Source: Kineothrix sp. IPX-CK (lineage in GTDB: Bacteria > Bacillota > Clostridia > Lachnospirales > Lachnospiraceae). Taken from it: DNA of 64,000 nt. The position numbers and the translations under genes are program-made. The notes under the pieces were generated by a model. It was not told the DNA's origin and ran no database searches. It saw nothing but the letters and a program-made list of their open reading frames with translations. Numbering within the stretch: position 1 is the stretch's first letter; each line of letters opens with the position of its first letter. Location: NCBI RefSeq assembly GCF_039134705.1, contig NZ_CP146256.1, positions 4,659,254-4,723,253 on the forward strand, in the 5' to 3' direction. Shown one piece after another: positions 52,674-64,000 of the stretch.

Positions 52674-54524
52674 TTATGCCAGGAGTTGATGATTAAGCTG
52701 ATCCAGCAGGCCGCTTACTTCAATCCCATGAACTACGCAGGCATCTGCCAATGATTCCATCTGGGAGGAAGGACAGCCCAGGCAGTGCATACCGCTTGCC
52801 ATCAGGACAGAAGCCGCATCCGGATACTGACGGAGAATTTCTCCGATCAGCATATCCGCCGTAATACCTGACTGCTCTTTTTCCTCATCGCCAAAAAACA
52901 GCTCCATGTCATCTTCTACCGTTCCTATTCCTGCGATGCCGAAATTCTCCACAAGGACCTTTGCCACATTGGGGGAAAGGAAAGCCGGAAGTGTCGGGCC
53001 GAGGTGGATGTTCTTTACACCCAGATATAGCAGAGCCAGCAGGACAATGACAGCCTTCTGCTCATACCATGCAATGTTGTACACAATGGGCAGATCGTTG
53101 ATATCATCCAGGCCAAAAACTTCCTTCAGTTTGAGGGCAATGACTGCAAGAGAATAAGAGTCATTGCACTGTCCGGCATCCAGTACCCGAGGAATGCCGC
53201 CGATATCACCGAGGTCAAGCTTATTGTATTTGTATTTTGCACAGCCTGCCGTGAGGATGACTGCATCTTCGGGAAGTGCCTTCGCAAAATCAGTGTAGTA
53301 GTTTCTTGACTTGGCCCTGCCGTCACAGCCTGCCATGACAACAAACTTCTTGATCGCTCCGGATTTCACTGCGCCAACTACGGCATCGGCCAGTGCCAGG
53401 ACCTGGTTATGGGCAAAGCCGCCGACGATTTGTCCGTGTTCGATTTCAGTGGGAGAGGGACAACGTTTTGCGTGTTCAATAATCTCTGTAAAATCCTTCT
53501 CATCGCCGATGCTGCCGGAAATATGCCTGCAGCCCGGATATCCTGACGCGCCGGTAGTATACAGGCGATTCTTGTAGCTGTCTTTGGGGGGAACGATGCA
53601 GTTAGTGGTCATCAGAATAGGGCCGTTAAAGCTCTCAAATTCCTCTTTCTGCTTCCACCACGCGTTGCCGTAGTTACCTACAAAGTGAGGATACTTCTTG
53701 AAGGCCGGATAGTAATGAGCGGGTAACATTTCCGAGTGGGTGTATACATCTACGCCCGTACCCTCAGTTTGCTTCAGCAGCATTTCCATATCTCGCAGGT
53801 CGTGACCGGATATCAGGATACCGGGGCGCGTGCCCACTCCGATGTTGACCTTAGTAATCTCCGGATTTCCATAGGCAGTAGTATTGGCTTTGTCCAGCAG
53901 CGCCATACCGTTAACGCCGTATTTGCCGGTTTCCAGCGTCAGAGCAACCAGATCGTTCACAGTCAGGGAATCGTCCAGTGTCTTGGCAAGAGCACTCTGC
54001 AGGAAGGCATCCACATCTTCATCCTCCTGCAGCAGGGCATTAGCGTGTTTGGAGTAGGCGGAAAGACCCTTCAAGCCGTAAGTGATCAGTTCCCGCAGGC
54101 TGCGCACATCCTCATTCTTAGTGGACAATACGCCAATCTCAGCGGCCTTGGCCTTGAATTCTCCACGATCATCAGAGTCCCATTTCGCAGTATCCGGCAG
54201 TATGCCCTGATTCTCAACCTGCGCCAGAAGTTCCCGCTTTTTATCGAGAGTCTCGACAATACGGGCAATAATGGCATCCTCGTCAAAGTTAGCGTTGGTA
54301 ATGGTGGTAAAGAGATTCAGAGTAACCAGATGATTTACTTCCTGTGCAATGGTCTTGCCTTCGCTGCGCAATTGTGTTGTAACTGAGGAAAGTCCCTTTG
54401 TTACATATATAAGCAGATCCTGCACAGCAGCAACCTCCGGATTTTTACCGCAGACACCCGATACGGTACAACCGGTATTGCCGGCAGCTTCCTGACATTG
54501 GTAGCAAAACATTTTATTCTCCAT
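52674..54524 (-). CDS. hcp: Hybrid cluster protein (Hcp) with C-terminal DUF1858-like domain
   Basis: A cytosolic Fe-S-O enzyme of 616 residues, now seen mainly as a nitric oxide reductase and originally assayed as hydroxylamine reductase. The N-terminal [4Fe-4S] cluster Cys pattern is C7-x2-C10-x8-C19-x5-C25. Hybrid-cluster ligands lie in [36 protein letters not shown] and [10 protein letters not shown]. Residues about 550-616 form an extra domain with [13 protein letters not shown], a DUF1858-like module with a CxxC pair, making it longer than the roughly 550-residue norm. It heads an operon with a protein of unknown function and a hemerythrin. Confidence 0.95.
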
Positions 54525-54575: not shown

Positions 54576-54617
54576 ATTTTAACAAGGTAGATAAAAAAAA
54601 TCGGTAACTTTCGTTAC
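54576..54617 (-). promoter_or_regulatory. hcp promoter with CRP/FNR-type palindrome centred at -41.5
   Basis: The palindrome GTAAC-N4-GTTAC (54604-54608 and 54613-54617) has its centre at 54610.5. On the minus strand an extended -10 element TG-T-TAAAAT lies at 54576-54584 (TAAAAT at 54576-54581), predicting a start at 54569. The distance is exactly -41.5, the class II activator position of CRP/FNR proteins, and there is no good -35 element. A CRP/FNR-family gene lies at 61035. From memory, HcpR regulators of hcp in Clostridia recognise similar GTAAC palindromes. Confidence 0.7.
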
Positions 54618-54783: not shown

Positions 54784-55761
54784 ATGGCAACTGTAAAAGA
54801 CGTCGCAAGGATTGCACAGGTATCAGCGGCAGCCGTGTCACGCGTTCTGAATCGTGACGACAATATTTCCGTTACGTCGGAAGTACGTATGCGTATTATT
54901 AAAGCGGCTCATGACCTTGGATATATCCCGCCAAAGCAACGCAAAGCTATGAAAACCAGTAAAAAATTGACGATTGGCGTGGCGGATTGGCAAATTATCC
55001 GTCAAACTCATGCCAATATGCGGCTTTCTTCCCTTGACTGTCTGGTACAGATGATGACGAGCGAATATGACATCACCTTCAAGCGACTGCTGTTCGGGCA
55101 CATAGAAAATGTTGACGGCGTAATCGCTTTCGGGGTTTTTACCGAAGAAGAGAAAGCCTTTCTGCGAAGTGTGAGCTATCATATTGTATTTATCAATTCT
55201 GACCAGCATAATTACGAATACGACCAGGTACAGGTAGATTTTGACCGGGGCCTGCGACAGATTACCGAATATCTTTTGGACAGTAAGCGCTATAAGGGTG
55301 TTGGCTATATCGGCGGATTGTATGAAAGCGGTAATATCCGCATCGGCTACCATCGACTGGATGGATTAAAAAGCATTTTAAAAGAACGGGACTGTTATGA
55401 ACCGGATTTTTTCCATGTAGGAGAAATCAGCCGGGAAAGCGGCTATGAGCTGGCTAAGAAAGCAGCTTTGAGCGGCAGCCTTGCCGAAGCCATGCTTCTG
55501 GGCAGCGATGAAGTAGCCGAGGGGGCATTGGAGGCTTTTCGCGAACTGGGCCTGCGTGTTCCAAAAGATGTTGCGGTTGTCATTTATCAGGATATTGAAA
55601 CACTTCATACGAAATGGCCCACCGGTACGTGTGTGGAAATGTTCCCGGACTATGTATGGCAGAATGCTATTGAGCTGCTGCTTGACCGTATCGGCGGAAA
55701 GCGGATGCAGGCCGTGACCGTCACAGTGCCCACACATATAAAAATCGGCGATACAGCTTGA
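54784..55761 (+). CDS. LacI-family transcriptional regulator
   Basis: A protein of 325 residues with the N-terminal LacI helix-turn-helix and hinge (ATVKDVARIAQVSAAAVSRVL, then residues to about 60) and a periplasmic-binding-like ligand domain. Typical segments are IGGLYESGN, YHRLDGLKSIL and the segment DVAVVIYQDIE. AAAGGAGAG precedes the start. It is immediately upstream of the PhnDCEE-type importer and likely represses it; the palindrome at 55797-55812 is a candidate operator. Confidence 0.9.
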   Translation: MATVKDVARIAQVSAAAVSRVLNRDDNISVTSEVRMRIIKAAHDLGYIPPKQRKAMKTSKKLTIGVADWQIIRQTHANMRLSSLDCLVQMMTSEYDITFKRLLFGHIENVDGVIAFGVFTEEEKAFLRSVSYHIVFINSDQHNYEYDQVQVDFDRGLRQITEYLLDSKRYKGVGYIGGLYESGNIRIGYHRLDGLKSILKERDCYEPDFFHVGEISRESGYELAKKAALSGSLAEAMLLGSDEVAEGALEAFRELGLRVPKDVAVVIYQDIETLHTKWPTGTCVEMFPDYVWQNAIELLLDRIGGKRMQAVTVTVPTHIKIGDTA

Positions 55762-55788
55762 ATAACAGTTGCAGAGGGAATTTCCCTT

Positions 55789-55812
55789 TATAATGCGGTC
55801 GTTTTAACGACC
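55789..55812 (+). promoter_or_regulatory. TATAAT -10 with downstream palindrome, candidate LacI operator
   Basis: A TATAAT (55789-55794) is followed at once by GGTCGTT-TT-AACGACC (55797-55812), a palindrome with perfect 7-bp arms that would cover the transcription start of the phnD-like gene. No good -35 was found. Short symmetric operators at +1 are usual for LacI-family repressors. A possible half-site TTAACGA also lies just before the lacI start at about 54764. Confidence 0.5.
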
Positions 55813-55860
55813 CGCAATAAAATGAAAAACAGAACGAAAAACAACATGGAGGATGAAAAA

Positions 55861-57009
55861 ATGAAGAAAAGTATTTCCCTTTTAGTGGCAGGTGTGATGT
55901 GCGCATCCTTTCTGGCAGGCTGTGGCGGAAGCAGTGCTTCAACTGCATCGGAAGAAACCACAGGCTCTTCAGCCGCGTCTGAAGCCGCTACACCTGAAGA
56001 GGCAGACTCATCTGCTACAACGGAAAAGGCGGACTCATCGGTTGAAGCGGAAGCTGCCGGCTCTGAAATAGAAAAATTAACAGTGGCTTTTGTTCCTTCC
56101 CGTGAACCGGAAGAAATCATTACTGCCACGGAGCCGCTCAAACAAATGCTGACTGACGAGCTTGCCAAAGAAGGCTATAAAGTCGGTGAGATCGACATTA
56201 CCGTAGGTACTAGCTATGAGGCCGTGGGTGAAGCCTTGAGTGCCGGAACCGCCGACGTGGGCCTGATTCCGGGCGGAACTTATGTGTTGTACGACGACGG
56301 CTGTGATGTTCTTCTGACCGCCACACGCGATGGGCTTTCCATTGATTCCGATGCCGCCAAGGACTGGAATGACCAGAAACCCACAGAAGCCAGCGACAAA
56401 CAAGCTACCTCCTACCGTGCGCTGATGATAGCCGGGCCGTCACCTAAGGGCAAGGAGCTGGCTGAAAAAATCAATAGCGGAGAATCGTTGACATGGGAAG
56501 ATATTGACAGCGCTAACTGGAGCATCATGGGTTCTTCTTCTCCTGCGGGCTATATTTATCCGTCCCTGTGGCTGCAGGATGGCTTCAGTAAAAGTATTCT
56601 TGACCTGTCTCACGCGGTACAATCGGATTCTTACGGTAGCGCTTTTGCCCGGCTTGCTTCCGGACAGATAGATGTGCTGTGTACTTATGCGGATGCCCGC
56701 AGGGATTATGAGGAAAAATGGAACAGCGAATACAGCATGACAAATTCCATTTGGGATGACACCGCCGTAATCGGTGTAACTGCCCCAATCTACAATGATA
56801 CTATCAGTGTCAGCAAGACTTCTCCGATCATGGACGATGCGTTTAAAGCTGCTTTGAGCAATGCCTTTATTAATATAGGAAACACAGACGCAGGCAAAGA
56901 AGTGATTGCGATCTACAGCCATAATGGTTATCAGCCGGCTCAATCAGGAGATTATGACAGTGAGCGCGCCGCACAGCTTATGATCCAGTCTATGAATGCT
57001 ACTCCCTGA
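55861..57009 (+). CDS. Phosphonate/phosphate-type ABC transporter substrate-binding lipoprotein (PhnD-like)
   Basis: A lipoprotein of 382 residues with lipobox LAGC, Cys about residue 20, and a Ser/Ala/Glu linker. The mature sequence has PhnD features: LTVAFVPSREPEEI, SAGTADVGLIPGGTYVLY, MGSSSPAGYIYPSLWLQD and FARLASGQIDVLCTY. Family members bind phosphonates, phosphite or related oxyanions. GGAGG selects the ATG at 55861 over an upstream in-frame start. Confidence 0.92.
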   Translation: MKKSISLLVAGVMCASFLAGCGGSSASTASEETTGSSAASEAATPEEADSSATTEKADSSVEAEAAGSEIEKLTVAFVPSREPEEIITATEPLKQMLTDELAKEGYKVGEIDITVGTSYEAVGEALSAGTADVGLIPGGTYVLYDDGCDVLLTATRDGLSIDSDAAKDWNDQKPTEASDKQATSYRALMIAGPSPKGKELAEKINSGESLTWEDIDSANWSIMGSSSPAGYIYPSLWLQDGFSKSILDLSHAVQSDSYGSAFARLASGQIDVLCTYADARRDYEEKWNSEYSMTNSIWDDTAVIGVTAPIYNDTISVSKTSPIMDDAFKAALSNAFINIGNTDAGKEVIAIYSHNGYQPAQSGDYDSERAAQLMIQSMNATP

Positions 57010-57023
57010 TGTTCGCACCGGGA

Positions 57024-57067
57024 TAACGCAAAAAGGAGAGCAGAGTCTGTTCTCCTTTTCTGCGTTA
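57024..57067 (+). terminator. Strong stem-loop between phnD-like and phnC-like genes
   Basis: TAACGCAAAAAGGAGA (57024-57039) pairs almost fully with 57051-57067 around an 11-base loop. It lacks a T-tract after the stem. It probably attenuates transcription into the membrane genes or protects the upstream mRNA. Confidence 0.6.
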
Positions 57068-57100
57068 TGTACTTATTATCCTTCGTGAAAGGAAAACCGA

Positions 57101-57853
57101 ATGATTGAATTTAAACATGTTGAAAAGATTTATCCCAATGGAGTCCATGGACTCAAAGATGTGAATCTGCAAATCGAACAAGGCGAATTTGTAGCCATTA
57201 TCGGTCTGTCCGGCGCGGGAAAGTCTACTTTGATCCGCACAATCAACCGGATGCATGATATTAGTTCCGGAATGCTGACGGTAGACGGCGTAGAAGTAAT
57301 GGAACTGAAAGGGCGTGGCTTGCGGCAGTTTCGCCGGCAGATCGGTATGATTTTTCAGTCCTTCAACCTAGTCACTCGCACGACTGTACTGAAGAATGTG
57401 CTGGCTGCCCGTGTACCGGATCTTAGCTGGGGACGCGCTTTGTTTGGAATTTTCTCCAAAGAGGACAAGCTGGAGGCTTTACAGGCATTGGATCAAATGA
57501 ACATTCTCGAGAAGGCCTATATGCGCGCCGACCAGCTCTCCGGCGGCCAGCAGCAGCGTGTGGCTCTGGCACGCACGCTGGCACAGAAGCCGCAGATCAT
57601 TCTTGCAGATGAACCAGTGGCTTCTTTGGATCCGGTCACCGCAAGGCAGGTAATGGAAGATTTTGCCCGTATCAACCGAGAAACCAATATTACCGTGCTG
57701 ATCAACATTCACCATGTGGAACTGGCTTTGCAGTATGCAAGGAGGGTAATTGGAATCCGCGCCGGCCAAATTGTGTATGACGGCCCTGCCGGAGAAGTGA
57801 CCCAAGCGGTGCTGGATGAGATTTATGAAAACAGGCAGGAGGAGAGCATATGA
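57101..57853 (+). CDS. phnC: Phosphonate-type ABC transporter ATPase (PhnC-like)
   Basis: An ABC ATPase of 250 residues with Walker A GLSGAGKST, Q-loop MIFQSFNLV, signature LSGGQQQRVALAR, Walker B IILADEPVASLD and the switch INIHHVELA. The sequence after the Q-loop (TRTTVLKNVLAARV) is characteristic of PhnC. It overlaps the first permease gene by four bases. Confidence 0.92.
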   Translation: MIEFKHVEKIYPNGVHGLKDVNLQIEQGEFVAIIGLSGAGKSTLIRTINRMHDISSGMLTVDGVEVMELKGRGLRQFRRQIGMIFQSFNLVTRTTVLKNVLAARVPDLSWGRALFGIFSKEDKLEALQALDQMNILEKAYMRADQLSGGQQQRVALARTLAQKPQIILADEPVASLDPVTARQVMEDFARINRETNITVLINIHHVELALQYARRVIGIRAGQIVYDGPAGEVTQAVLDEIYENRQEESI

Positions 57854-58671
57854 AACTGTATGACAAACTGTTTCCTCCCCAAATGATTATTCTGCCAAAT
57901 GGAAAAACCGTGCATAGGCCCCGTTCCCGTGTACCGGTGATTGCGTTGGTGCTTCTGGCGATAACAGTACTTTCTGTGAAGGTTACGGGATTTGCCCCCA
58001 TGGTGATTTCCCGGCGCGGCTACCAGTTTTTTGTCATTCTTGGACAGATGGTTCCGCCGCAGTGGGATTATATGAAGCAAATCTGGACGCCGCTGCTTGA
58101 CACCATCAAGATGTCCTTGCTCGGCTCTTTTGCCGGGTCGGTAACAGCTGTTCCGTTTGCAATGCTGGCCTCAACCAATATTATCAAGAACCGGCTGGCA
58201 GTACCGTTGATGCGCTTTTTTTTCAGTCTGGTACGCACGCTCCCAACGCTGGTCATCGCACTGATTGCTACTTACATTTTCGGACTCGGTACACTGGCTG
58301 GTACCACAGCCATCGCCGTCTTTACCTTTGCTTATCTGGGTAAGATTCTCTATGAGGAAATCGAGACTGTGGATATGGGTGCTTTCGAGGCTATGGAATC
58401 TATGGGGGCTACAAAAACACAGGCTTTTGTGTGTGCAATCGTACCTCAGGTAGCACCCTCCTATCTCTCAAACTGCTTATTTTGCTTTGAGGGCAATGTA
58501 CGCTATGCCGCAATTCTGGGGTACGTGGGTGCCGGCGGGCTCGGGCTGATCTTGAATGAGAAAATAGGCTGGAGGGAATATGCCAGTGTGGGAATGATTC
58601 TTCTGGCATTGTTTATTACCGTATTTATTATTGAAACCATCAGCCGGGCCATTCGCCGGCGTCTGACTTGA
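57850..58671 (+). CDS. phnE: Phosphonate-type ABC transporter permease (PhnE-like, first copy)
   Basis: A membrane permease of 273 residues with about six helices. The characteristic segments are DTIKMSLLGSFAGSVTAVP, the coupling loop FEAMESMGATKTQAFVCAIVPQ and NVRYAAILGYVGAGGLG. AGGAGGAG precedes the start. It is one of two PhnE-type permeases and probably forms a heterodimer with the next gene product. Confidence 0.92.
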   Translation: MKLYDKLFPPQMIILPNGKTVHRPRSRVPVIALVLLAITVLSVKVTGFAPMVISRRGYQFFVILGQMVPPQWDYMKQIWTPLLDTIKMSLLGSFAGSVTAVPFAMLASTNIIKNRLAVPLMRFFFSLVRTLPTLVIALIATYIFGLGTLAGTTAIAVFTFAYLGKILYEEIETVDMGAFEAMESMGATKTQAFVCAIVPQVAPSYLSNCLFCFEGNVRYAAILGYVGAGGLGLILNEKIGWREYASVGMILLALFITVFIIETISRAIRRRLT

Positions 58672-58685
58672 GGAGGTGTGCGCCC

Positions 58686-59498
58686 ATGAACGAACGAGTT
58701 CTAGATACATATGACGCCCGTCCGCGTGCAACAATCCGTCAATTGATTTTAATTGCGGTGCTGATCGGGCTGATGGCTTGGTCCTGCTCCGCCATGAACG
58801 CAACCGGCGCCGGTGAGAACGGCGGAAAGATTGCCCTGAATATTCTGACCGGACTATTGCATCCGGACACGGGCCTGTTGTTTACCTTAACCAAGGAGGG
58901 AGTCCCCTATCTTTTGCTGGAAACGGTCTGTATTTCTTTTCTGGGCACCGTAGTGGGGGCGGTCATTGCTATTCCGCTGGCATTTTTTTCCGCTTCCAAC
59001 CTTATGCCCCGCCCTGTAGCATTTGTCAGCCGTGTTATCATAATGGCGGTGCGTACCGTGCCGGCTTTTGTGTACGGCTTGATGTTCATTCGCGTTACCG
59101 GACCGGGACCCTTTGCCGGACTGCTGACAATGTCACTTTGCTCGGTGGGGATGGTCAGCAAGATGTATATTGAAGCAATTGAAGACTTGGACTCCGGCGT
59201 ACTGGAATCTCTCAGCGCTGCAGGCTGCGGACGGCTGGCACAGATCCGCTATGGCGTATTGCCCCAGCTGATGCCGAATTTTGCTTCCACCGCCATTTAC
59301 CGCTTTGATGTCAATCTGCGTGACGCTACGGTACTGGGACTTGTGGGCGCGGGTGGTATCGGCGCTCCATTAATTTTTGCTATGAGTGCCTATCGCTGGA
59401 ATGATGCCGGCGCTATTTTGTGGGGTCTTATTATCTTGGTATTGGTTGTGGAATGGATTTCCACGCGCATACGGATTAAACTGACAAGAGGAGAATGA
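58686..59498 (+). CDS. phnE: Phosphonate-type ABC transporter permease (PhnE-like, second copy)
   Basis: A membrane permease of about 270 residues. Family segments are LLETVCISFLGTVVGAVIAIP, the coupling loop LESLSAAGCGRLAQIRYGVLPQ and LRDATVLGLVGAGGIG. The ATG at 58686 has GAGGAGGTG upstream; an in-frame start at 58668 inside the spacer is less likely. It overlaps the start of the phosphoesterase remnant frame at 59495, so all five genes read as one operon. Confidence 0.92.
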   Translation: MNERVLDTYDARPRATIRQLILIAVLIGLMAWSCSAMNATGAGENGGKIALNILTGLLHPDTGLLFTLTKEGVPYLLLETVCISFLGTVVGAVIAIPLAFFSASNLMPRPVAFVSRVIIMAVRTVPAFVYGLMFIRVTGPGPFAGLLTMSLCSVGMVSKMYIEAIEDLDSGVLESLSAAGCGRLAQIRYGVLPQLMPNFASTAIYRFDVNLRDATVLGLVGAGGIGAPLIFAMSAYRWNDAGAILWGLIILVLVVEWISTRIRIKLTRGE

Positions 59499-61023
59499 AA
59501 GTGAAAAAACTTTTCAGATTTTATATACTTCCGACATGCACGGACATGTCATGCCTGTAAACTACAGCGATGCTCTACCTAGTGACTCCGGCATTCTGAC
59601 TCTGGCGGAAACCTATAAAAAAGAAGGAAATACACTCATTATTGACGGCGGCGATATTCTTCAAGGCACGCCGCTTACCCAATACTATTTGGAACATTGC
59701 GGGCAGTATCCTTTTCATCCGGTCGCTCTTTCCATGAATGCCGCCGGATATGATTATATTACTCTGGGTAACCATGATTTCAACTACGGTTATGATGTGC
59801 TAAAGGATTACCTGCATGCGCTCAATGCTCAATGTCTGTGTGCAAATGTACATGATCTACGGGGAGAACTGGGAATTCTGGAAAAAACGATACATATCCT
59901 GCCAAACGGCTTGCGTATCGGGATGACCGGAATTGTTACTGATTTTGTGAAAATATGGGAAAGCAAAAAGAATCTTGCAGGTCTTGCTATTTCTGATTCG
60001 TTTGAAACTGCAAAGAGCATGTACGAGGAATTGCGGCCGGAGTGTGATGTGTGCGTGTGCATTTATCACGGTGGATTTGAAAGAGACCTCGTTACGGGCG
60101 CGCTTCTGTTCGATACCGGCGAAAATGTAGGCGGGCGCATTTGTGAAGAACTTGGCTTTGATATTGTTTTGACCGGGCATCAGCATATAGAAGTACCTGG
60201 CATCAAAATTGCCGATACACATGCGGTACAGCTGCCGGATGGGGCCGCGCAATATATCCGGCTGAACGGGCAGACAGATTCCGAAGACGGAATACAGATA
60301 CAATCTGAGCTGATGCCCGCCGGAAGCCGCTGTGCTGCTGAGCCTTATCACACGATACTGCCGCTGGAAAAGGAGGTGCAGCGCTGGCTGGATCAGCCGG
60401 TGGGAACGCTGGATGTCAACATTGTGCCGGAAGAAAAGCTATATGCGGCTCAGCAAGGCAGCCGCCTTGCCGCCTTGTTCAATCAGATTCAGATGGATGC
60501 CACCGGTGCACAATTCTCCTGTACCAGCCTTGGTAACCAACCTGCCGGAATGCCTAAGGATGTTACTATACGCAGTATTATCGCGGCGTATTTGTTTGCC
60601 AATACTTTGGTCGTGCTGGAAGTCACGGAGGATATTTTAAAAGCTGCGCTGGAACGCTGTGCTGCTTATTTTACGCTGGAAAACGGCGTTCCTTCCATTT
60701 CCGATGTATTTTTAAAGCCTAAAATCGAGCACTATAACTATGACTTTTATGCGGGCTTGCGCTACACCTTTGATTTGCGCCGTCCGGTGGGGCAGCGTGT
60801 TATCAGCATTGCCGGTGCCGATGGAAGCCCTTTGGGAAAGGGACCGTTCAGCCTGTGTACCAGCAATTACCGTGCTACGGGTACCGGCGGCTATGAGGTA
60901 CTGAGAAAGTGTCCGGTCCTCTGGCGCGGAAACAAAGAAATGGCACAGCTGGCTGCTGCCTATATCCGTGGCCGCAGTCCTTTGACCGTGCCTGAACCGG
61001 ATGGTCCGGTGATTGTGTACTGA
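59495..61023 (+). pseudogene. 5'-nucleotidase/2',3'-cyclic phosphodiesterase-family enzyme with a 5' frameshift
   Basis: A metallophosphoesterase with a C-terminal 5'-nucleotidase domain. The expected start is ATG 59495 (MKVKKL, with AGAGGAG upstream), but the frame closes 22 codons later. The correct frame resumes at about 59512 with QILYTSDMHGHVMP, where SDMHGH holds the first metal ligands, and stays open to 61023. A run of T at 59511-59514 appears one base short. Later motifs are intact: GNHDFNYGYD, CIYHGG and GHQHIEV, and a C-terminal substrate-binding domain. If the protein starts at Met 59536 the first metal Asp is lost. The change could be a base-call error. Confidence 0.8.
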
Positions 61024-61034
61024 ATCAGTTCAAT

Positions 61035-61709
61035 TTATATAATGTTTTGCAATTCATCGAAATCAATGATGAAAATATCCTTTTTCTGTATTCGGATCAA
61101 CCCGTCATCCTGCATGTTCATCAGTTCTCTGGAAAGAGAAGGACGTGCGGTGTTCAAAAAATCTGCCAGCTCTTCGCGATTCATAGAAAGAGTTACCTTC
61201 CCGTCCGGATTACAATTTTTCAGCAGGATTTTGGCAATTTTTTGCCGCAGGGATGAGCAGGAAAGTATTTGGACTTTCTGGTTCAAAAAATAAGCCTTTT
61301 GAGCAAGAATCGACAACATATTGGAAATAAGCCGGGCATGGTATCCGCAGTCATCCCCGCAGGTATGAAAAAGAAAATCCTTGGGTATCTGCAAAACTAC
61401 GGCCGCAGTAACGGCCTGTGCATAGTGATCATATTCCTTACGGTTTAGAAAAACGAATACTTCGCCGAACAGCTCACCGGACCGGTCGAAAGCGGCGATG
61501 ATACTGCGCTTTCCTGAAACGGTATCATTGCATACAGCAACAGAACCATCCACAAGAACATGCAGCTTTACAGGCTCGTCATTCTGACAAAAAATCATCT
61601 CATCCTTTTCGTAAGAAATCATTTCCGATTTGCTGCACTGCAGGCAGCCCTGAATTTCATCCTCTGTCATGCCGGAAAATAACGGGCTATTTATTAATTT
61701 GTGAATCAT
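61035..61709 (-). CDS. CRP/FNR-family transcriptional regulator
   Basis: A regulator of about 224 residues with an N-terminal cyclic-nucleotide-binding-like sensor (INSPLFSGMTEDEIQ, LVDGSVAVCNDT, GELFGEVFVF). The C-terminal winged helix has the recognition motif MNREELADFLNTARPSLSRELMNMQDDG. Several Cys occur in the N-terminal half (CLQCSKSE, FHTCGDDCG), so an Fe-S or metal sensor is possible, but the classic FNR spacing is absent. The ATG at 61709 has GGGAAGG upstream. It ends 12 bases from the converging phosphoesterase. The GTPase/ATPase operon is its upstream partner. Confidence 0.9.
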   Translation of the reverse strand: MIHKLINSPLFSGMTEDEIQGCLQCSKSEMISYEKDEMIFCQNDEPVKLHVLVDGSVAVCNDTVSGKRSIIAAFDRSGELFGEVFVFLNRKEYDHYAQAVTAAVVLQIPKDFLFHTCGDDCGYHARLISNMLSILAQKAYFLNQKVQILSCSSLRQKIAKILLKNCNPDGKVTLSMNREELADFLNTARPSLSRELMNMQDDGLIRIQKKDIFIIDFDELQNII

Positions 61710-61745
61710 TTGCACCTTCCCTTCACACTGCTATCTGTGCATTTT

Positions 61746-62759
61746 TTAATCCTTATACGAAAGTTCTCCCCGGTGTAAGGTATTTCCCACACGAAGCATT
61801 TGGCGTGCGTTCTGCATGATAGCGTCGATTTTATCCAGATCCGCCAGCAGATCCTTCTCTTCCGGAGTGGTTTGCAGCACCGAATGAATGCCGCCGTTAC
61901 GAATGACGATACGCCGGTCTGCCATCAGGGCCAAAAGCGGGTCATGGGTTGCCATCAATACAATTTTGTCCTGAGAAACGAGTAGTTCAAGAGCTTTACG
62001 CCGGTCAATACCTGCATTTTCTATTTCATCGATCAACACAATAGGGGAAGCACTCAGGATGGCGGTATCTGCAATCATTAACGCCCGGGACTGACCGCCG
62101 CTCAAGCTTGTGACCGGGGTGTCGTCTGAGAATGCCTCTCCCGCCAGACGGTTGGCGGACTCCAGGATCTTTCCGGCGATTTCATCAGGGTTTTCTACCA
62201 TCCGGCTTTCTGCATGCAGCTTGACAAATTCGCCTGCGCTGATATCCATTACAAAGTTCATGTTCTGAGAAAGCTGAGCTACCAACTTATTATTGGGAGA
62301 ATATCGCCATTTAGGATCGGGCGCGACTCCATTGATACGGATACTGCGGCCAGTAGGAGTATCTCCCTGTGCTGCCCATTCGATATCTGCCAGCAGACGG
62401 CTTTTACCCGAGCCGGTAGGACCTACAATGGAAACGATCTGAGAGGGTAAAATTTCCAGATATTCAAAATCTTCCGCCTGTCCGCTTTTGTTTCTGCCGG
62501 GCAGGATGGTCAATGACTGAACAGCATTATTTTTTTCAATGCCCAAAAATGCCAGCATCTGAGAGATATAGCTCTCCAGCTCTCCGGGCAGGATCTGAAC
62601 ATCTATAGCCTTGTCCTCCAGTTCTTCCTCGCCCAGTCCCTCTAAAAACGCGGCAAACGTAGTATTTTCATGCCCGCTTACATCCAGTCGGTTCTGCTGG
62701 AAAAAGTCCGTGACAAAGGGATATTTGTCTATGAGTGTTCCGATGGTCTGCTGCTTCAT
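61746..62759 (-). CDS. Stand-alone ABC-type ATPase with N-terminal ScdA/DUF1858-like segment
   Basis: A soluble protein of 337 residues. Residues 1-60 (TIGTLIDKYPFVTDFFQQNR) resemble the small N-terminal module of ScdA/DUF1858 proteins but lack its cysteines. From about residue 100 it is a single ABC ATPase: Walker A GPTGSGKSRL, signature SLSGGQSRALM, Walker B PIVLIDE and switch MATHDPLLAL. There is no membrane segment. The end codons overlap the GTPase gene start, and no permease is near, so it is unlikely to be an ordinary importer ATPase. The role is unknown. Confidence 0.8.
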   Translation of the reverse strand: MKQQTIGTLIDKYPFVTDFFQQNRLDVSGHENTTFAAFLEGLGEEELEDKAIDVQILPGELESYISQMLAFLGIEKNNAVQSLTILPGRNKSGQAEDFEYLEILPSQIVSIVGPTGSGKSRLLADIEWAAQGDTPTGRSIRINGVAPDPKWRYSPNNKLVAQLSQNMNFVMDISAGEFVKLHAESRMVENPDEIAGKILESANRLAGEAFSDDTPVTSLSGGQSRALMIADTAILSASPIVLIDEIENAGIDRRKALELLVSQDKIVLMATHDPLLALMADRRIVIRNGGIHSVLQTTPEEKDLLADLDKIDAIMQNARQMLRVGNTLHRGELSYKD

Positions 62760-63457
62760 ACCTCATCCTCCTCCCATACCATTTTTTTGGTGTTGCCCAG
62801 CTGAAAGCTTTCCCCGATGCGGGTTTCTCCCAGACAGTATGAGCACATAGCTGAGGGCATGGGAAAACGCAGCTTCATACCCTGCACTGATTCCAGCTTC
62901 TGTGTTTCGTCATATAAAAGTGTGCTTAACTCATACGCGCCCTGCCCACTCAGCCCATTTACATGCAATACCATCGCTTTGGGATTGACGGCGCTCACTC
63001 GGGAAGCGAATACCTCACGCTCCGCCTGGGAAACAATATCTCCTTTGGTAATGACCACGATGTCGGCCGATTTAAGCATGGGACCGATTTTTTTCGGCGT
63101 GTTGATGCCGGAAAGATTATCAATGACACAAATCCCCTTTATACCTATCAGATACGGTGAGCAGCGATTGCATAGACCTGCCGATTCGGTGATCAGCAGA
63201 TCCAGCTTCTCCCGATTGCCCCACCCAACCACGTCCTCGATGTTGGAGGCGAAGAAGTGGTCGGGACATAAAGCGCCGGACAATCCTTTCTTCACTGGGA
63301 TTCCCGCTTTCTCATACAGCACATCATCGTCGGTGTGTAAACAATCAAATTTGACTACACCTACGGATAATCCACGTTTTTGAAATGCACCGATAGCTTT
63401 TAGAATCACCGAGGTCTTACCCGAAGAGGGCGGACCGGAAAAAATTGTCAGATTCAT
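62756..63457 (-). CDS. SIMIBI-class GTPase, HypB/UreG/CobW-like
   Basis: A cytoplasmic nucleotide-binding protein of 233 residues. The P-loop is SGPPSSGKTSV, the second switch region is DLLITESAGLCNRCSPYL and the base-specificity motif is VVITKGD. HypB and UreG relatives use such GTPases to insert nickel into enzymes. Cys pairs at ESAGLCNRC and near the C-terminus (MCSYCLGE) suggest metal or Fe-S binding. The gene overlaps both neighbours by four bases. The cargo is unknown. Confidence 0.83.
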   Translation of the reverse strand: MNLTIFSGPPSSGKTSVILKAIGAFQKRGLSVGVVKFDCLHTDDDVLYEKAGIPVKKGLSGALCPDHFFASNIEDVVGWGNREKLDLLITESAGLCNRCSPYLIGIKGICVIDNLSGINTPKKIGPMLKSADIVVITKGDIVSQAEREVFASRVSAVNPKAMVLHVNGLSGQGAYELSTLLYDETQKLESVQGMKLRFPMPSAMCSYCLGETRIGESFQLGNTKKMVWEEDEV

Positions 63458-64000
63458 ACCTTTCCCTCCGCCGCATCAAAGAAAATGCGTTCTGTTTCTT
63501 TCAGAAGTGCGCCGATGTCATGGCTGTAAATGAACTGCCATCCTGGCCACAGAAAGCTCGGATCCGGTGACAAGCCATTGTCAATTTCAGGATGAGTGGA
63601 TGGAAACTTTCCGTTTGCGGACAAGACATTCCCCATCTCTTTTGAAAACAGGAAATCCACCAACGGCTGGGATTTTTCTTTGGAAGCTGCTTTGGTCAGC
63701 AGGAAAATCGGGCTGACAATTGCACCGTCTTTGGGCCAGACGGGGCTCATTGGACCACCTTCCTTTGCCATCCATGTAAAGAAATACGGCATAACGGTTA
63801 CCACAGGGGCATTGTTCTGCTGCTTTTTAGCGCCGGATTTAATCATCTGCGCAGGATGCATGCTTGTCAGCAGGCTTTTTCCCAGCTTAGCTACGCCTTC
63901 TTCTCCGTATTCTTTATAGATTGCCAGCAAGACTGCGTTAAACAAATCCAAATCCCGCATGGGCAGGGCGACGGTGTTCTCAAATTCAGGCGTCAACAAA
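63454..64000 (-). CDS. Substrate-binding-protein-like protein (C-terminal part, runs off the window)
   Basis: 182 codons of the C-terminal region are present; the start lies beyond 64000. The sequence fits the lower lobe of a family-1/iron-type binding protein: AKKQQNNAPVVTVMPYFFTW, IVSPIFLLTKAASKE and VDFLFSKEMGNVLSANG. Whether it has a signal peptide, a lipobox or an extra N-terminal domain cannot be seen. Four-base overlap with the GTPase gene makes it part of the same operon. A cytoplasmic location is a possibility given the partners but is not shown. Confidence 0.75.
   Translation of the reverse strand, partial: LLTPEFENTVALPMRDLDLFNAVLLAIYKEYGEEGVAKLGKSLLTSMHPAQMIKSGAKKQQNNAPVVTVMPYFFTWMAKEGGPMSPVWPKDGAIVSPIFLLTKAASKEKSQPLVDFLFSKEMGNVLSANGKFPSTHPEIDNGLSPDPSFLWPGWQFIYSHDIGALLKETERIFFDAAEGKV

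Follow-up and report, generated by a model that had tools for sequence, protein, structure and literature searches.

The window analysed here, 64,000 nucleotides of the chromosome of Kineothrix sp. IPX-CK (NZ_CP146256.1, positions 4,659,254 to 4,723,253), is the last 64 kb of one 4,723,253-base contig, and it ends inside a cassette of three genes encoding a binding-protein-like protein, a HypB/UreG-like GTPase and a solitary ABC ATPase, followed by a gene for a CRP/FNR-family regulator (Table 1). All four genes are real, open minus-strand frames, each with a Shine-Dalgarno-like sequence upstream. The two four-base overlaps among the cassette genes that an earlier, sequence-only reading had described are exact; its close spacing of the regulator gene also stands, with a gap of 30 bases (GTG start) or 36 (in-frame ATG) in place of its 37. 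When the sequence was extended past 64000, as that reading had proposed, the binding-protein frame ran on without a stop across the contig end into C1, the contig start, and the full gene was read with no cassette permease beyond it. The joined protein aligns with its homologue P0002 end to end (92%), and the circular join is therefore sound. The chromosome record opens inside this gene (63999-64000), and its annotation may split it. On the same strand, 6.5 kb from the cassette, lies hcp, which had escaped the sequence-only reading, as had the operator that hcp and cassette share and the DUF1858 domain.

Table 1. Features of the cassette and of its predicted partner; coordinates above 64000 are extended ones that run into C1
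Feature	Coordinates	Strand	Remarks
FbpA-fold cytosolic binding protein, C-terminal part in window	63454..64000	-	continues to C1:692 (extended 64692); 412 aa in total; N-terminal DUF1858 domain
G3E-type GTPase, HypB/UreG-like	62756..63457	-	invariant CPDH, CNRC and CSYC motifs
Solitary ABC ATPase	61746..62759	-	N-terminal segment weakly DUF1858-like
CRP/FNR-family regulator	61035..61715	-	HcpR2-like by gene context and operator
hcp, hybrid cluster protein, predicted partner	52674..54524	-	TIGR01703, 766 bits; C-terminal TIGR03980 redox disulfide / DUF1858 domain
Perfect HcpR2 operator GTAACn4GTTAC	54604..54617	.	80 bp upstream of hcp
Second perfect GTAACn4GTTAC	C1:798-811 (extended 64798-64811)	.	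106 bp upstream of cassette

The closest folds of the binding protein, judged on a model of its homologue P0003, are ferric-ion-binding proteins of the FbpA/FutA type (the absence of a family from a fold list was not counted as evidence). FbpA proteins hold Fe(III) via a pair of tyrosines. The cassette protein differs from FbpA and FutA in its DUF1858 N-terminus, in a conserved cysteine and histidine (Cys101 invariant, His279 near-invariant), in the lack of an FbpB-type permease alongside and in its cytosolic character. A signal peptide, which in combination with known importer-family hits for all three proteins the sequence-only reading had named as speaking against it, was sought by hydropathy in 96 binding-protein N-termini, and a single one passed the threshold, from an over-long ORF start, while two FecB controls were clearly positive; by this measure the protein is neither exported nor a lipoprotein, as the binding protein of an ABC importer would be.

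The GTPase matches PF02492 (44.8 bits, cut-off 20.7) and carries in the alignment a GPPSSGKT P-loop, an ESAG motif (ExxG) with the G3 glutamate, and TKGD at G4, a motif of the general form [NT]KxD. The HypB/UreG-type motifs and Cys pairs noted earlier are firmly conserved, with CPDH, CNRC and CSYC kept in 98/98 homologues, and CPDH resembles the CPH nickel motif of UreG. Its scores lie below the NCBIfam cut-offs for both HypB (TIGR00073, 50.5 of 121.2 bits) and UreG (TIGR00101, 24.7 of 204.2 bits), and its nearest solved relatives by sequence, ranked after low-complexity-type RecA fusion matches, are 2hf8 (HypB) and 5xkt (UreG). It is like HypB and UreG in its P-loop, its G3 motif and its richness in cysteine, and unlike them in the additional invariant CNRC and CSYC and in the company of an ABC ATPase and a binding protein; the cassette adds a distinct subfamily of Cys-rich G3E GTPases. 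The G3 glutamate serves as the G3E mark in the passages available of PMC9164220, which also give CxCC as the mark of COG0523 GTPases; that motif occurs in none of 15 aligned sequences.

The ABC ATPase (48.5 bits to PF00005, cut-off 25) has the full motifs ascribed to it before: each position of Walker A, LSGGQS, DEIEN and the H-loop is conserved in at least 91 of 95 homologues, most in 94-95. Its N-terminal segment resembles DUF1858 weakly (Pfam E 0.044; hhalign to the binding-protein N-terminus E 1.6e-4, probability 51), and matches of either N-terminus to the C-terminal domain of Hcp are weaker still (probability 15 for the binding protein, 10 for the ABC protein). ABC ATPases that act without a membrane domain are represented by SufC/SmsC and by PhnK/PhnL of C-P lyase, and 9h7x and 7z16 are among the fold matches, tied with many transporter ATPases. 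Unlike those systems, the cassette has no SufBD or C-P lyase genes with it, and it has an N-terminal segment of its own, the GTPase and the binding protein. A role in anti-phage defence was considered and set aside: PADLOC matched the ABC protein (six models, best mad3 at 2.6e-15) and neither of the other two, which we put down to shared ATPase motifs.

The three genes travel together. A contig scan found 408 places that encode relatives of the GTPase (true HypB possibly included), and the best 80, all at least 76% identical, were fetched as loci. ORF calls place the complete cassette in 75/80, the binding-protein gene being immediately upstream in 78 and the ABC gene next downstream in 77; tblastn recovers the binding-protein gene in the two loci without a call (cut by the contig end in L033, whole in L059) and finds the ABC gene in pieces in L030, while the sequences of L036 and L063 stop at that point. 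Among the carriers are many Clostridia, Pectinatus, Treponema parvum and Fusobacterium.

No membrane partner accompanies them. Past 64000 the window's extension shows no permease gene on the cassette strand, the next genes being an AraC regulator and then a divergent FecB/FecCD/ATPase importer complete in itself; a permease pair of the cassette directly upstream, which would have told against the sequence-only reading, did not turn up. In 72/80 loci no polytopic protein is encoded in the same-strand stretch of genes that includes the cassette, and the membrane proteins scanned from six of the other eight loci or their families comprise a 12TM protein, an ABC exporter and transporters of the EamA, chromate and citrate kinds, none of them a binding-protein-dependent permease (the two of L081 lay outside the scan). 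This bears on gene neighbourhood, and a permease elsewhere in the genome is conceivable; within the window, the extension and the surveyed runs, the description of the ATPase as lacking a membrane partner is borne out.

The survey that had been called for also singled out one metalloenzyme gene: hcp is the most frequent other neighbour of the cassette, with 37 copies in 35/80 loci, all on the cassette strand. Where a CRP/FNR gene directly follows the ABC gene (11/80 loci), hcp is next in all 11, and in a further genome set hcp lies directly downstream (f87) or upstream (f72) of the cassette. A small zinc-ribbon protein is encoded directly after the ABC gene in 25/80 loci (L014, L047, L073 and 22 others), 21 of them with hcp; it has 80 residues, starts MHE/MHD-GC and contains seven conserved Cys/His. 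Its assignment to HypA is suggestive only (Pfam HypA 23.9 of 28.9 bits; TIGR00100 19.2 of 88.1), a PDB profile search brought up zinc-finger-type matches, all weak, but not HypA, and no clear copy is present in the window genome (best E 0.32).

The enzyme Hcp, which detoxifies NO, is widespread and has an unusual Fe-S-O cluster. The window's Hcp is an ordinary member (766.5 bits to TIGR01703, cut-off 360.8; 936 bits to Desulfovibrio desulfuricans Hcp, 1gn9), and it carries the C-terminal disulfide domain listed in Table 1; the Cys and Glu residues that act as cluster ligands are conserved in the alignment to 1gn9.

Operators, too, link hcp to the cassette. The HcpR2 operator GTAACn4GTTAC was described by Rodionov et al. 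2005 (PMC1274295, in the passages available). The whole 4.72 Mb genome contains exactly two perfect copies, one before hcp and one before the cassette, and nine of the reversed control pattern. Among relatives, 40/76 regions upstream of the binding-protein gene have perfect HcpR2 boxes and 9/76 match at 9 of 10 bases (against 0 and 0.4 in shuffled sequence), as do 29/37 and 5/37, respectively, of the regions upstream of hcp; two of 78 binding-protein upstream regions, too short, and one of 29 hcp loci, L178, whose start is unclear, were left out. In four f72 genomes both genes are preceded instead by TGTGAn6TCACA of the Desulfovibrio type (9 of 10), and Lacrimispora, Peptostreptococcus and others have before both a palindrome, GTTGYWnnWRCAAC, first seen at the cassette (12/65 genomes, e.g. 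at L037, L038, L040, L076, L083 and the hcp loci belonging to them), which may be an HcpR-type operator not recognised before. In the 65 genomes with both upstream regions, cassette and hcp share the operator type in 55 (permuted mean 30.5, maximum 43 in 10,000 permutations). When close relatives are thinned to a single genome per cluster, the count is 28/34 for clusters at 75% identity and 17/23 for clusters at 65% identity, never reached in 20,000 permutations, and in 24 genomes, the window genome included, where hcp is not beside the cassette, 18 share the type. Background genes of the same loci have types A, B and C (the last being the new palindrome) at 17, 7 and 31 of 866, and hcp regions are still set apart when just the type C core, as read at the cassette, is used (p 1.8e-6, without correction for kinship). 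The cassette resembles the HcpR/HcpR2 regulon of hcp and frdX (PMC1274295; PMC12915319) in being preceded by the same operator and, in the 11 loci mentioned above, in having the regulator gene between the ABC gene and hcp; it is not named in the passages available of those two papers. That the cassette is co-regulated and partnered with hcp is well supported by these genomic comparisons, and induction of the cassette by NO would presumably follow.

Co-occurrence extends the association beyond neighbours. In a class sample of 291 genomes, with the cassette-type binding protein called at E < 1e-100, the binding protein occurs in 12 and hcp in 140, and all 12 have hcp; so do nine of nine further cassette genomes from a phylum sample and 23/23 genomes picked among the 45 loci whose fetched flanks lack hcp. 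In the G227 class, where the GTPase was the sole criterion for the cassette, hcp is present in 17/19 cassette genomes versus 51/59 overall, which is no enrichment; in 13 of these 17, hcp and cassette share a contig and are no more than 20 kb apart. Pooled, Hcp is found in 54/56 distinct cassette genomes, counted after four repeats had been taken out along with three genomes that identical hcp coordinates showed to be duplicates.

More distant relatives broaden the picture. Eight further cassettes in six genomes keep together a leaderless binding protein (24-33% identical), the GTPase (51-68%) and the ABC ATPase (L134, L135, L136, L137, L138, L140 and L141, with two cassettes in L135 and two, L140 and L141, in genome G479), and in a further genome (L139) just the binding protein is present. 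Their neighbours are FecCD importers (L134, L135, L141), a FecB-type binding protein (L137), SAM methyltransferases (L135, L141) and a ferredoxin-domain protein (L136). Seven of their upstream regions were tested for the HcpR2 box, and in none is it perfect, that of L135 matching 9 of 10 bases. This suggests that the general trade of the cassette is metal handling, with the Hcp-linked branch as one use.

How might such a cassette work? An HcpR2-like CRP/FNR protein would sense nitrosative stress and activate hcp and the cassette via the same operator. The leaderless FbpA-fold binding protein would take a metal or metal complex, most likely iron, into its cleft via Cys101 and His279, its DUF1858 domain docking it on partners, and the solitary ABC ATPase and the Cys-rich G3E GTPase would spend ATP and GTP to release the metal and hand it on to metallocluster building or repair, most likely of the Hcp hybrid cluster. 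Delivery of iron to that cluster is the most economical reading because an iron-binding fold, Cys/His invariants, a metallochaperone-type GTPase and the Hcp neighbour come together. The sequences themselves show the parts and how well they are conserved, the missing importer permease and signal peptide, the linkage to hcp and the common operators; we infer the metal, the direction of transfer, the direct contact with Hcp, the role of the DUF1858 domain and the induction of the cassette by NO. That the cassette is a cytosolic, permease-less metal-handling machine of the HcpR (nitrogen-oxide) regulon serving Hcp lies, in our judgement, just on the probable side. The stronger proposal, a new machine in which importer parts have moved to the cytosol and joined a G3E GTPase for loading or rebuilding the Hcp hybrid cluster under nitric oxide stress, we offer tentatively, as a possibility that falls short of probable. 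A delivery machine in preference to an importer, the suggestion of the sequence-only reading, fits the evidence, short of demonstration.

Several observations weigh against a metal-handling machine that serves Hcp. Most Hcp genomes have no cassette (compare the 140 and 12 of 291 above), so Hcp has no general need of it and the cassette is not essential for Hcp as such; it may serve Hcp under iron shortage or cluster damage. In two of the 19 cassette genomes in the G227 class, where hcp is common anyway, no hcp was detected; G707 is a 90%-complete assembly, and G723 a fragmented one of 95% completeness. Ten of the 65 genomes share no operator type (four with type C and three with type A at the cassette and none at hcp, two differing, one with none), and type C and its threshold were defined on these same data. 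The HcpR2 operator is not universal for the cassette, because in 20 other cassette genomes a perfect box stands just upstream in only four (G526, G174, G133, G213), with a box 419 bp upstream in G188 and none there in 15. The distant cassettes lie beside FecCD importers, methyltransferases or a ferredoxin-domain protein and not hcp, FbpA-like folds bind phosphosugars, PLP and polyamines too, and riboflavin-synthesis genes, the most frequent neighbours after hcp and with no known Hcp link, stand near the cassette in 10-12/80 loci, those of Lacrimispora relatives and Peptostreptococcus.

The main rival is general repair, in which the cassette, sharing no more than its regulation with hcp, supplies iron during NO stress to the damaged Fe-S clusters of a wide range of proteins, the role proposed for the di-iron protein RIC/YtfE. 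The common operators, the many Hcp genomes without cassette and the two cassette genomes without detected hcp would all suit it; hcp is nevertheless the most frequent enzyme neighbour and lies beside the cassette in the most diverse groups, and a DUF1858-family domain occurs on the window's Hcp too, though it is weakly similar to the cassette's N-terminal domains. We consider general repair plausible, if rather unlikely. Insertion of nickel or another non-iron metal into a different enzyme, in the manner of HypB or UreG, draws on these being the nearest named families to the GTPase and on the zinc-ribbon protein with its weak HypA similarity. Ni-CODH, tried as a target and rejected, exceeds the cut-off in only 3/21 cassette genomes (four if E values up to 1e-20 are admitted), and none turned up in the window genome (G000), a survey of CODH that left hydrogenases, urease and other nickel enzymes aside, and we hold nickel insertion to be improbable. 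Maturation of CODH, to which the window's Hcp is weakly matched, by CooC/CooT/CooJ (PMC13056359, in the passages available) is likewise NTPase-assisted and acts on an Hcp-related enzyme, with protein families different from those of the cassette, and most of the cassette genomes tested have no CODH. A binding protein that senses a small ligand in the cytosol, e.g. a nitrogen oxide adduct, with the NTPases as signalling output, would agree with the related SBP-like folds of two-component sensors (6lkg) and is very improbable given metal-ligand-like invariants in both binding protein and GTPase. Least likely of all is an importer built of ordinary ABC parts with its permease encoded elsewhere: the folds of the binding protein and ATPase are importer-type, whereas the binding protein has DUF1858 at its N-terminus and no signal peptide, and the surveyed runs hold no suitable permease.

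If the cassette does serve Hcp, a binding protein and an ABC ATPase would work away from the membrane, and this would be the first dedicated Hcp maturation or repair system in the literature searched, with sister cassettes for other metal targets beside FecCD importers. That search, mostly of titles and abstract starts, with subscription papers and preprints outside its scope, returned no description of the cassette; the earlier statement that no named system has exactly these parts agrees with it, and a prior description may exist. The passages drawn on (PMC1274295, PMC12915319, PMC13056359, PMC12780646, PMC9164220) name no Hcp maturation or repair factors. The cassette supplies named, testable candidates for that task and enlarges the predicted HcpR regulon in many anaerobes.

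A few minor observations remain. Carriage on plasmids was considered and rejected: of five matching records just one is close, and that Fusobacterium record, at 2.1 Mb, is probably a chromosome. The 2.1 Mb Fusobacterium vincentii record labelled plasmid (L149, NZ_CP084075.1), probably the chromosome, carries the cassette together with a perfect HcpR2 box, and its fetched 17 kb contain no hcp. The loci with riboflavin genes (lumazine synthase and others) are L029-L031, L033, L038, L039, L042, L044, L050, L078, L082 and L083, the Peptostreptococcus arrangement being different. In the window itself, the interval between hcp and the cassette (54784-61023) is taken up by an opposite-strand block for a LacI regulator, a 5'-nucleotidase and an ABC importer of the phosphonate type, which may have been inserted between the two.

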